NCBI GenBank assembly: GCA_015345905.1 | Contig: JADDTR010000009.1 | Coordinates: 62,001-126,000 of the forward strand | Source: Aotearoamyces nothofagi | Lineage: Eukaryota > Ascomycota > Leotiomycetes > Leotiales > Tympanidaceae | Reading direction: 5' to 3' | Length of the DNA: 64,000 nucleotides | Part shown: positions 28,362 through 39,605 of the stretch, piece by piece | Layout of the letters: each line of letters begins with the position of its first letter | Numbering within the stretch: the stretch's first letter is position 1 | Made by a program: the position numbers and the translations under genes | The notes under the pieces: model-generated | Databases searched by the model: none | Told to the model about the DNA's origin: nothing | The model's input: only the letters and a program-made list of their open reading frames with translations

Positions 28362-30258
28362 TCAGTGCTTCCACTGCGATCTTGCCATCTCCGTTAAGAA
28401 GGCAATGCCCGGGACTCTCCAGTCGTCTCGCTCGACATAGGTAGTCACATCAGCATCAAAGACAATATTATCGCCAAGTCCTTGATTGTCAAGCGTATAC
28501 CGAGGCCAGGTCGGATACCCTCCGAGACCATGATTGTTCGGATCCAAATCATGCACAAACGAGCTCCACATACGGCTCATCAACGTAGCCACTTCAACAT
28601 AAGCGCTCCGGTTGATCAGGGTGCCGTTGAACGGGCTCGTTGCATAGCCGGTGCCATCGATATTGTCAAACACCCATGCGACTTCCTGGAAGTGCGTGAC
28701 GCCGATGGCGCCCGTGAGTCCGGCAGGCAAGACATTAAAGCGGTAGCTGTACGCTGTGATGTTGTACTTTGCGTAAGCCTGTATAGTTGCGCGGCGAGGG
28801 TAGTGCTCGACAGCGTCGCCGAAGAAGGCGGCACTGCGCTTCCACTGCGTACCGTACGTAGCCTCATCCGCAGCGGTGAGGGCGTAATTGTGAGGGATTC
28901 CAACAGCAGGGACGTCGGGGTAGAGATACTCGATGATGCTGATTGTCTCGTTGTCTGGCCCGCCCCCGGCGACTGCGAGCCGGAAGTCTTCGTCGGTGTC
29001 TACGGGACTTGGACTGATCGCCGTGCCTTCATCAGTGTTGGTTCCGTACAGGATAGGCACCTTGACGAATCTGCCGTCGGCAATCTGCGTGCTGCAGAAG
29101 TCTTGCAGGAAGTCGTTGTCAATGACCGAGACCCAGGGACCCAAGCCCGTCCCCGCGATCCAGGTGTCGGTGATGTTGAGGGCGGCATTGAGCTGCGCAA
29201 ATGGAAGTTGTCTCAGACATTCTAGTGGAGCACTTGCATTGTGGCAGCCAGTGCTGGTCGTGAGGTTGTAATAGAGGTCTTCGCTGTAGCCGTCTGGGTC
29301 GGGCGTATCATAAGGCCATCTCTCCAGCGGCCCTCCCGACTCCATAATGGCTGCTCTGAAGAGCTTGTCGTCCCTTCCACCATAGGCAACTAGTTGCCGT
29401 CCAATTGCGATCCCGCCGGCGCTCTCCCCCCAGAGAGTGACCTTTGTCGGATCTCCCCCGAATGATTCAACGTTTTCTTGGATCCAGTGGAGAGCTAGGC
29501 GCTGGTCTCGCAATCCGATGTTTCCAGTCCCATTTGCACGTACCTCGTTGCTCCAGAGGAACCCAAAGGCAGAGAGACGGTAGTTCAGGGATACTGCTAT
29601 GATAGGCTTGCTGGCCTCGACGGACTTTTGCACTATTCGAGAGAGGTTGTAGCGAGAATCTCGGCTTCCACCTTCGTAGAAGCCTCCACTGCAGCCATGC
29701 GTCAGCTGATATAACATACCGGGTATTAAGATTGAAACCCGCACCCATAAAGCCAAACTACTACAGGCAGAGGCTCAACTGGAACACCTGCTGGGCGGAC
29801 CACATTGATAGTAAGGCAATCCTCGGCAGAGGGGTAGAAGTTCGAATCAGACTACGTGAATCTGTAAGTATATTTCCACCTTCCCTTACCGCAAAGCAAT
29901 CCGGCCATAGATGGGGCACATACACCATAGCCAACACACTATAACACTTCACGTTAACAAGCCATCCATTCTCGGGAGATGTTCTCCAGCTCACAATTGG
30001 GGAGTACTCCGTTGCATTCTTGGTGCCTGTCCAGGTGGTGTTCAAGCTGGCCGGGGCGCGGAATCTTAGATCGCCTACCGGCGGCTGCGCATACGGCATC
30101 CCGAGGAATTCCTCCTCATTATAGTGAGCGTTGAAGGCGCCAACATAGGAGCCGTTCTTGGTTGTCACGGTTGGTGGCGTGCAGGCGCCAACAGCAGTCT
30201 CAACGAGAACAAACAAGGCTGCTGCCGCGGCAAGGGGTCGCAAAATAGAGAAGGCCAT
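28362..30258 (-). CDS. secreted type-B carboxylesterase
   Basis: Serine hydrolase of the carboxylesterase/lipase type-B family. Four exons on the minus strand (30258-29995, 29938-29924, 29851-29745, 29688-28362) give 570 aa. Two introns must be removed to restore the family block [25 protein letters not shown], one leaving a 15-nt exon; a third restores WLYGGGFYEGG. The start at 30258 opens a signal peptide ([24 protein letters not shown]). The nucleophile elbow is LWGESAGG, the catalytic His is probably in HFQEVAWVF, and the oxyanion glycines are in YGGGF. Many NxT/S sites fit secretion. A CCGTCGGGAA palindrome 350 bp upstream links it to the permease-dipeptidase-decarboxylase cluster. The substrate is unknown; ester or amide release from a nutrient is inference. 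Confidence 0.9.
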
Positions 30259-30604
30259 ATTTGGACGATCGTTCCAGCTCCCCTCGTTGTGGAAGATGCT
30301 GTTGACGAACCAATGCCTGTTTTGATAGGACATTCCCTGGGGCATTCCGGGATGATATTTATGCACTTTCTACTTTATCATCACATTCAAGCCCCGTACA
30401 CTATGATCCATACACTATGAAATGGCAAGGAGCGACTTATCAAGCTGCTAGGTTAATATTGAGCATCAGCACCGATAACGAATGTCGCTGGTCCCTCATA
30501 CTGAACTTTCACGATCCGCTTTCCTATCGTGTCCACAGCCAAAGGATAATCAGGCGGATCTATCGAGTCCCACCGCTGCCAAGGTTTTTTATTGCGGTTC
30601 CCCG

Positions 30605-30618
30605 TTCCCCGTCGGGAA
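30605..30618. promoter_or_regulatory. cluster palindrome, esterase promoter copy
   Basis: TTCCCCGTCGGGAA, flanked so that the wider arms read GGTTCCC / GGGAACC. The core is CCG-T-CGG, an everted CGG pair as used by Zn2Cys6 dimers. The left half is duplicated just before it (GTTCCCC GTTCCCC). It lies about 350 bp upstream of the esterase ATG. Binding by the Zn2Cys6 protein encoded at 35.3-37.5 kb is inferred. Confidence 0.6.
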
Positions 30619-37523: not shown

Positions 37524-38207
37524 TGCCGCGGCACGCTTCCGTCGAGCCTCTTGATACTTGATACTTGGTCCACGCAGCAGGGGGGAGAAAAATGAATATA
37601 GCCCGTGTATGGTGGTCAGTATGCTGGCTGACTGCTACCGGCGTAGAAGTCGAGCATCAAAGAGATACGAAAAGGATGGGGAGGGATGGGGCAGGATGGG
37701 TCATGGCCGGGTTCGCCATCGGCCGGGTTTCCCGATTGCCGATTGCCGATTGCCGACGGGAAAGCTGGCGACTCTAATCGTCCCTCTCCTCTCCACGGCG
37801 CCCACATCTCATTTTACACTTTGGTGCGGCCGTACGTATGCTATGCCACGTCAACATCCGAGCGGCCATGTTTTGCGCGCCGTCATGGAAGGCCGAGGGC
37901 CTCAAGCTTCCCTGAGCGGTACGGCCTGTCCAGCGTCATGGCCAACGGAGGTAAAGTACTGCATTTGGCTTCCCTAGTACTCGGGAAACTTGTGAATGCG
38001 ATGCTGGACCTTGACTGCGCTGAACTGCGCCTAGTCTCATACGGATGCTGACGCAGAGATCCGAATACAAAAGGATCTCCCGTCGTTGCAGTATTGCTTT
38101 CTCCTAGAACTACGTGGGTCGATTCTTCTTTCTTCGCAGCATCGTGGCTTCTCCATAGCATTCCTCATTGTGATAATCCCTTCATATTACGGCTTCTACT
38201 ATCTAAG
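37524..38207. promoter_or_regulatory. divergent promoter of regulator and decarboxylase
   Basis: 684 bp with no gene of its own; short frames here have no recognisable domain. It holds the split palindrome at 37728-37763. A further partial half-site, CTCGGGAAAC, lies near 37979-37988. The decarboxylase start is taken as 38208; an upstream in-frame ATG at 38094 would add a non-conserved leader. Confidence 0.55.
37728..37763. promoter_or_regulatory. cluster palindrome split by a 7-bp tandem repeat
   Basis: TTTCCCG (37728-37734), then three perfect copies of ATTGCCG (37735-37755), then A and CGGGAAA (37756-37763). Without the repeat the halves would read TTTCCCG-A-CGGGAAA, the same core as the perfect palindrome at 33662-33684. 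The right-hand CCGACGGGAA is intact, because the repeat ends in CCG. It lies 205 bp from the regulator ATG and 445 bp from the decarboxylase ATG. Confidence 0.75.
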
Positions 38208-39605
38208 ATGCCATCTAAACTCGAAACGGTCGTTGGCGAAGTGGAAGTTGTCACTGGCAACTCACAGAAAGCCGGAGTAAACCTTTACCCAGGAGTTGAA
38301 CAGAGTGCCACAATGGCAGTAGCAGACTCAACCTTGATACGCTTTGGCGGAGCTTTCGACCGACAACTCATCGTTGGAGCCCAGGGAATCTACATCTACA
38401 CCTCGACAGGGCACAAGATCCTCGATTTCACATCCGGCCAAATGTCATGCCTCGTGGGTCACGGCCACCCAGAAATCGTAGAGGCCATCACAGCCCACGC
38501 CTCCAAACTCGACCACCTTTACAGCGGCATGTTATCGCCGCCGGTCATCCAGCTTGGACAAAAGCTCACCAGCCTCCTACCGGAGGGTCTAGACAAAGCG
38601 ATGTTCTTGAGTACCGGTGCCGAATCGAACGAAGCAGCTATTAAAATGGCAAAGCTTTACACAGGCAAGTATGAGATAGTTGCCCTTGGCGCCGCATGGC
38701 ATGGCATGACGGGTGCCTCTGCCACAGCGACTTATCATTCCGGTCGCCGAGGATACGGACCGATGATGCCAGGATCCATGGCCTTGCCATCGCCAAATGC
38801 ATACCGCTCTATCTTTCGCCATGCCGACGGTAGTTACGACTGGGAGACCGAATTAAAGTACGGCTGGTCTTTGATTGATACCCAGTCCAACGGCTCCCTA
38901 GCAGCAGTCATCATCGAGCCAATTCTCAGCTCAGGTGGAATGCATGTACTACCCCAAGGCTATCTCAAGGCCATGAAAACCTACTGCGAGGAACGTGAAA
39001 TGCTCCTGATCGTCGACGAGGCGCAGACTGGAATCGGCAGGGCCGGTGATATGCTCGCGTGTGTGCACGACGGCGTTGTTCCTGATATTCTGACGCTGAG
39101 TAAGACGCTTGGGAACGGGCTACCGCTTGCAGCTGTGGTGACGAGCGAAAAGATTGAAAAGGAATGTTTTGACAGGGGCTTCATGTTCTATACTACGCAC
39201 GCCAATGATCCATTACCTGCGGCTGTTGGGCTGAAAGTCTTGGAGATTGTGGAGCGAGATAATCTTGTTGAGCGGTCGAGGACTTTGGGACTGAAGCTGA
39301 GAGCTGGGCTGGAGGGGCTGCAGCGGAAATATGGCTGCATTGGAGATGTGCGAGGGAGAGGACTGATGGCTGGTGTAGAAATTGTGAAGTCTAGAGAAAC
39401 TAAGGAGCCGGGTTTTGAGTTGGGGACAGCTTTGGGAGACAGGATGGCGGAGTTGGGACTTTGGGCAAATTTGTCTACTCTCAAAGCATTTGGAGGAGTG
39501 TTCCGGATCGCACCTCCTATCACTATTTCAGAAGATCAGCTAGAGATGGGGTTGAGGATCTTCGAAGAAGCTCTGAGAACCACTCCAGGAAGTCTTCCAC
39601 TGTAG
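38208..39605 (+). CDS. dgdA: 2,2-dialkylglycine decarboxylase (class III PLP aminotransferase fold)
   Basis: Predicted to decarboxylate alpha,alpha-dialkyl amino acids (2-aminoisobutyrate to acetone, isovaline to butanone) and pass the amino group to pyruvate, giving alanine. One exon, 465 aa, slightly longer than the about 433-aa bacterial enzyme because of an N-terminal extension. Matches to the Burkholderia enzyme are long and close to identical: ILDFTSGQM-CLVGHGHPEIV, KLDHLYSGMLSPPV, LSTGAESNEAAIKMAKL, WHGMTGASA, EPILSSGG, DEAQTGIGRAG, LTLSKTLGNGLPLAAVVTS, FYTTHANDPLPAAVGL, GDVRGRGLMAGVEIVK and GGVFRIAPPIT. PLP lysine is K299, PLP-binding Asp is D270, and W164 matches the active-site Trp of the family. 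An ordinary omega-aminotransferase is less likely because substrate-site blocks match throughout. It is divergent from the cluster regulator. Confidence 0.93.
   Translation: MPSKLETVVGEVEVVTGNSQKAGVNLYPGVEQSATMAVADSTLIRFGGAFDRQLIVGAQGIYIYTSTGHKILDFTSGQMSCLVGHGHPEIVEAITAHASKLDHLYSGMLSPPVIQLGQKLTSLLPEGLDKAMFLSTGAESNEAAIKMAKLYTGKYEIVALGAAWHGMTGASATATYHSGRRGYGPMMPGSMALPSPNAYRSIFRHADGSYDWETELKYGWSLIDTQSNGSLAAVIIEPILSSGGMHVLPQGYLKAMKTYCEEREMLLIVDEAQTGIGRAGDMLACVHDGVVPDILTLSKTLGNGLPLAAVVTSEKIEKECFDRGFMFYTTHANDPLPAAVGLKVLEIVERDNLVERSRTLGLKLRAGLEGLQRKYGCIGDVRGRGLMAGVEIVKSRETKEPGFELGTALGDRMAELGLWANLSTLKAFGGVFRIAPPITISEDQLEMGLRIFEEALRTTPGSLPL

Follow-up and report, generated by a model that had tools for sequence, protein, structure and literature searches.

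What would bring a secreted esterase, a transporter, a dipeptidase, a transcriptional regulator and a decarboxylase for an unusual amino acid together in one short block of a fungal genome? The five neighbouring genes in question lie at 28362-39605 of a 64-kb stretch of contig JADDTR010000009.1 from Aotearoamyces nothofagi (the window, meaning the whole stretch analysed), in the order esterase, permease, dipeptidase, regulator and 2,2-dialkylglycine decarboxylase (DGD), all of them intact. A first-pass annotation had proposed that they act together to take up dipeptides, hydrolyse them and recover nitrogen from 2-aminoisobutyric acid (Aib). Read from its sequence, the block may be the Aib-catabolic regulon of a filamentous ascomycete, a reading on which we stand midway between acceptance and doubt. 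The evidence for it comes from the decarboxylase itself and from a promoter element that recurs across the block.

The decarboxylase and its locus

Each of the five spliced gene models runs from ATG to its stop codon free of internal stops, and every domain match cited for them exceeds its Pfam gathering score, so that the five adjacent genes and the identities first assigned to them are borne out. Intron borders were set by hand from sequence alone, after an automatic first pass. A pseudogene reading was ruled out, the models of all five genes being uninterrupted. The regulator and DGD genes are divergent, their start codons 684 bp apart; permease and dipeptidase form a second divergent pair with 502 bp in between; the esterase gene lies on the same strand as the permease gene and downstream of it, at a distance of 996 bp.

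In a search of PDB, the window DGD scored 536 bits against Burkholderia cepacia DGD (1d7r), a bacterial enzyme, with 242 of 416 aligned residues identical (58%), while the best chain not named DGD, among the best 60 of 160 sequences, reached 213 bits. A plain GABA (gamma-aminobutyric acid) or acetylornithine aminotransferase is ruled out by these two scores. The Pfam match is to Aminotran_3 (284 bits), as for a class-III pyridoxal phosphate (PLP) enzyme, and no DGD-specific model occurs among the best 25 of 69 NCBIfam rows for the decarboxylase. Six substrate-subsite residues, Q52, W138, M141, S215, K272 and R406 in the list of PMC10169451, are all identical in the window protein. The "very clear" decarboxylase of the first-pass annotation is upheld by this identity and by these residues: judged by its sequence, the intact DGD carries the full Aib-type active site. 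Family knowledge predicts the reaction Aib + pyruvate -> acetone + CO2 + alanine, and the gene block very probably breaks down Aib. The title of a 1990 paper by Keller reportedly places a repressor gene with the B. cepacia DGD. In the window, DGD adjoins a zinc-cluster regulator, as in the fungal DGD1-DGD2 Aib locus; the regulator has Pfam matches to Fungal_trans (69 bits) and Zn_clus (25 bits).

The core of this arrangement, DGD plus a regulator degrading Aib, is already published in yeasts. The available part of Tapia et al. 2023 (PMC10169451) describes a segment of three genes, DGD1, the regulator DGD2 and an amino-acid permease, in Saccharomyces uvarum, S. kudriavzevii and S. eubayanus; deletion of DGD1 or DGD2 abolishes or nearly abolishes growth on Aib, Aib-dependent induction requires DGD2, and DGD1 forms acetone from Aib, the products being acetone and alanine. 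Isovaline is used as well, Aib is said to give peptaibols their protease resistance, and Aib released by peptaibol breakdown is proposed as the natural substrate. The statement in the first-pass annotation that no fungal pathway of this kind had been described is therefore overturned. In the window, as at the Saccharomyces and Zygosaccharomyces DGD1-DGD2 locus, a zinc-cluster type regulator accompanies the DGD, whose predicted substrate is Aib; a permease gene is present too, as in the Saccharomyces segment. Unlike most yeast Dgd2p, the window regulator retains its Zn2Cys6 motif. A DGD gene of another filamentous ascomycete, Mycosphaerella graminicola DGD1 (Adachi 2003), is cited in the available text of PMC10169451 together with a purified fungal enzyme (Esaki 1994); its deletion leaves morphology and virulence unaffected according to a citing paper, PMC6514085, likewise available in part. 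Among the matches listed in a literature search, titles and abstract starts yielded no further fungal DGD locus.

A promoter element and possible nitrogen control

The three promoter-bearing intergenic regions of the cluster together make up 3.4% of the window (2182 bp). Among 7-mers, TTTCCCG/CGGGAAA shows the strongest enrichment in the cluster promoters, and an unbiased k-mer ranking puts TTCCCG, TTTCCCG and GTTTCCCG at the top for K = 6, 7 and 8; of their copies in the window, 7 of 30, 6 of 11 and 5 of 7, respectively, fall within the 2182 bp. In unmasked sequence, under a mask that is approximate because not every exon of the window was modelled, six of seven TTTCCCG copies fall within cluster promoters. 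Random triples of equal lengths, drawn from the remaining window with coding sequence included, contained an equally enriched word in all three regions in 3 of 3000 cases at K = 8 and 19 of 3000 at K = 7.

Stronger evidence than this k-mer test comes from palindromes. When perfect palindromic half-sites with gaps not exceeding 40 were sought in both divergent promoters, the pair was found to share a perfect 7-nt half-site, which none of 2000 dinucleotide-shuffled pairs did; shorter shared half-sites arose in 16 of 2000 shuffled pairs at 6 nt and in 694 of 2000 at 5 nt. A scan of the whole window for everted repeats (minimum arm length 7, spacer no longer than 30) returned just two perfect CCG...CGG repeats, one in each divergent promoter, identical in half-site and different in spacer (1 nt vs 22 nt). 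Among the perfect palindromes of the window (spacer up to 3), the copy between permease and dipeptidase is the longest. Four matches to TTYCCCGNCGGGRAA at up to two mismatches are found where 0.48 would be expected, three of them within the three intergenic regions and the remaining one inside a nonribosomal peptide synthetase (NRPS) gene; CCCGNCGGG occurs three times against an expectation of 0.59, twice in the intergenic regions of the cluster. Paired CGG triplets are the typical target of Zn2Cys6 proteins, which makes the adjoining regulator the natural reader of this element. As far as promoter sequence can tell, the shared element supports tying the genes into one regulon, the esterase least clearly.

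The longer spacer, between regulator and DGD, consists of ATTGCCG repeats and thus forms an array of CCG triplets.

Several features of the element count the other way. The motif was first spotted by eye, and the statistical tests were applied afterwards. Once a word is no longer demanded in all three regions, 174 of 3000 random triples at K = 8 and 217 of 3000 at K = 7 do as well, and for that reason the k-mer test, taken by itself, is no more than fair. Upstream of the esterase, this half-site forms a perfect inverted pair of just 5 nt (TTCCC...GGGAA), with none at 6 nt or more, and the region otherwise offers an imperfect copy and one half-site; this gene's membership is the weakest of the five. 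Another TTTCCCG is located at 40003, beyond the cluster promoters. The late choice of motif, together with the 3 to 217 of 3000 triples that equal it depending on the statistic, is what could be said for five unrelated neighbours sharing the element by chance, an explanation we consider very unlikely given a first-ranked word at three lengths and a palindromic half-site matched by no shuffle.

HGATAR sites, bound by GATA factors, are expected at nitrogen-controlled genes. The three cluster regions hold 17 of the 88 such sites in unmasked sequence (2182 of 23067 bp), with seven in the esterase region, eight in the permease/dipeptidase promoter and two in the regulator/DGD promoter. Eight in a 502-bp promoter have a Poisson probability of 3e-4 at the window-wide density, and the palindrome in that promoter is framed by GATAAG, at 33654 before it, and CTTATC, at 33683 and overlapping its final two bases. 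By its sequence, this pattern fits nitrogen control of uptake, though not clearly of DGD.

Permease, dipeptidase and esterase

New here is the presence of a dipeptidase, a Dal5-type permease and an esterase beside DGD. The permease matches MFS_1 at 137 bits; its top NCBIfam model, TIGR00893 (2A0114), scores 199 bits, under the cut-off of 395, and a search of solved structures at E 0.01 gave zero relatives. The "Dal5-family" assignment first made for it holds as far as an MFS transporter with an ACS-type best model; it is a reasonable label, but a generic one. The protein probably belongs to the same transporter family as Saccharomyces cerevisiae Dal5p, judged without direct sequence comparison. 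Dal5p transports di- and tripeptides, the majority of which in one strain had N-terminal alanine or glycine (available part of PMC1342634), so by analogy uptake of Aib peptides, dipeptides among them, by the window permease is possible; feeding on Aib dipeptides is inferred. One intron of the permease model, 31963-32014, has a GC-AG border.

The dipeptidase matches Peptidase_M19 at 320 bits and, judged by eye, has no signal peptide. Its nearest solved structure, at 270 bits, is GliJ (5lwz, which we take to be the GliJ dipeptidase of Aspergillus fumigatus); two Asp residues that differ in the GliJ entries 5lx1 and 5lx7, apparently mutants, are both kept in the window protein. The part proposed for it is unlike that of this closest solved relative, for GliJ acts in gliotoxin biosynthesis. 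The carboxylesterase matches COesterase at 298 bits and by eye has an apparent signal peptide; its top solved chains, among the best 60 of 87 rows, carry the names lipase or cholesterol esterase.

These three genes need not belong with DGD. The Aib module might be DGD and regulator only, with Aib entering through general amino-acid permeases, and the permease, dipeptidase and esterase might belong to a different module, for the uptake of peptides or anions, that is adjacent by chance and perhaps subject to the same general nitrogen control. The yeasts provide a precedent, as their Aib uptake is ascribed to Gap1p in the available text of PMC10169451. GATA sites are concentrated in the permease/dipeptidase and esterase regions and not at DGD, whose shared promoter lacks GATAAG and holds just the two HGATAR sites. 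Bacterial loci were surveyed in the best 79 of at least 571, over up to 10 kb per side (less at contig ends), as raw counts without a background rate. Relatives of the M19 dipeptidase lie near DGD in one of the 79, leaving 78 without one, so that bacteria lend no support to a DGD-dipeptidase partnership; relatives of the ACS-type permease lie near DGD in four, and those of the esterase and of the regulator in none, the last being expected in bacteria.

Comparison with yeast, as far as the available text of PMC10169451 extends, bears on the same question. Deletion of the yeast-cluster permease gene is without phenotype there, and no orthologue of it was found beside DGD1 or DGD2 in other yeasts. 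The window permease is of the MFS_1 type, unlike the yeast amino-acid permease GAP1d, and the dipeptidase and esterase of the window have no reported counterpart at the yeast locus. In all strains but one, DGD2 has a pseudogenised Zn2Cys6 part, and induction still works; as Dgd2p works without it, the yeast case gives no proof of binding through Zn2Cys6. Opposed to the two-gene module is the palindromic half-site, in everted CCG...CGG form, which is common to both divergent promoters and unique to them within the window; a module so restricted seems to us somewhat doubtful. The proposal that the genes act together on Aib retains their identities, the Aib-type DGD and the linkage through a shared promoter element, and loses the novelty of its core as a pathway.

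A tree was built from the window DGD, its sole fungal sequence, and 75 bacterial DGDs out of the 79 (four were dropped for a stop within the aligned stretch), and was rooted at the midpoint for drawing only. The window sequence sits on a long end branch (1.49) in no well-supported group, and the tree shows no donor lineage for it. A scan of viral contigs for relatives found none.

Surrounding genes

Of the flanking open reading frames (ORFs) that match a Pfam family, those closest to the block are a Ric8 gene at one end and, at the opposite end, a CENP-U-like gene; past the latter come an ABC transporter and then a large NRPS. An ORF fragment at 26671-27150 has no Pfam match. Since GliJ-like dipeptidases, carboxylesterases, MFS transporters, Zn2Cys6 regulators and PLP enzymes are common tailoring genes, the block might instead be a small secondary-metabolite or detoxification cluster, its DGD fold serving a biosynthetic transamination or decarboxylation. 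Both the GliJ resemblance and the NRPS and ABC transporter 3-24 kb downstream of the block would suit such a cluster. None of the five genes is a core synthase, however, and the closest NRPS ORF begins at 49454, separated from the block, as is the ABC transporter, by the CENP-U-like gene; DGD has the active site of the Aib enzyme; and beyond the block the window has no perfect everted palindrome like the shared one, though single half-sites occur inside the NRPS gene. We regard this explanation as unlikely.

The NRPS ORF (49454-63085, +) has matches to three adenylation, five condensation and five carrier domains, in an order judged by eye to be A-T-C three times and then T-C twice, presumably that of ferrichrome synthetases; the ABC transporter (42765-46881, -) adjoins it. 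Elsewhere in the window, an ORF at 5300-8794 has two WSC and five PAN_4 domain matches, a gene of the purine nucleoside permease (NUP) family lies at 9530-10756 (-), and a threonine dehydratase at 21614-23239 (+), which has two matches to C-terminal regulatory domains, is unlinked to the cluster as far as seen.

Table 1. Genes of the block and copies of the promoter element, in window coordinates.
Feature	Position	Strand	Details
Type-B carboxylesterase	30258..28362	-	570 aa, 3 introns
MFS permease, ACS (Dal5-like) type	33321..31255	-	513 aa, 8 introns, one GC-AG
M19 dipeptidase	33824..35264	+	429 aa, 3 introns
Zn2Cys6 regulator	37523..35275	-	671 aa, 4 introns, divergent to DGD
2,2-Dialkylglycine decarboxylase (DGD)	38208..39605	+	465 aa, intronless
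TTCCCCGTCGGGAAC, imperfect copy, 1 mismatch to TTYCCCGNCGGGRAA	30605..30619		Upstream of esterase
GTTTCCCG half-site	30802..30809	+	Upstream of esterase
Perfect 23-nt palindrome AGAGTTTCCCG-A-CGGGAAACTCT	33662..33684		Permease/dipeptidase promoter
TTTCCCG-N22-CGGGAAA	37728..37763		Divergent regulator/DGD promoter
Extra GTTTCCCG half-site	37982..37989	-	Regulator/DGD promoter

From free Aib to peptides

An intact Aib-catabolic locus of the known kind is, in our judgement, real, and its extension towards peptides is probable; a pathway for feeding on peptaibols is plausible and was partly anticipated in print. Searches of the literature found no paper joining "dialkylglycine" and "dipeptidase", subscription literature being mostly outside the search, and on peptaibol breakdown or resistance the matches listed comprised only Tapia et al. 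and an Arabidopsis paper. In the proposed mechanism, the regulator would sense Aib or an Aib peptide and bind the palindromes, turning on all cluster genes; the permease would import small peptides that contain Aib, or some related solute, the dipeptidase would cleave the imported peptides in the cytosol, and DGD would turn Aib and pyruvate into acetone, CO2 and alanine. The fungus would gain nitrogen and rid itself of a toxic amino acid. The esterase may act extracellularly on some ester.

In its fullest form, which we put forward tentatively and would not ourselves assume, the block would be a fungal system devoted to feeding on peptides that contain Aib, for example fragments of a rival's peptaibols; import, cleavage of dipeptides and decarboxylation of Aib would all be governed by one Zn2Cys6 regulator reading the CCG...CGG palindrome. 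The shared promoter element renders the regulon reading directly testable. Yeast catabolism as published covers free Aib and isovaline (PMC10169451, available part); peptide uptake and a dipeptidase joined to DGD would add the preceding step, in which free Aib is obtained from peptide. If this is true, a peptide weapon becomes a nitrogen source.

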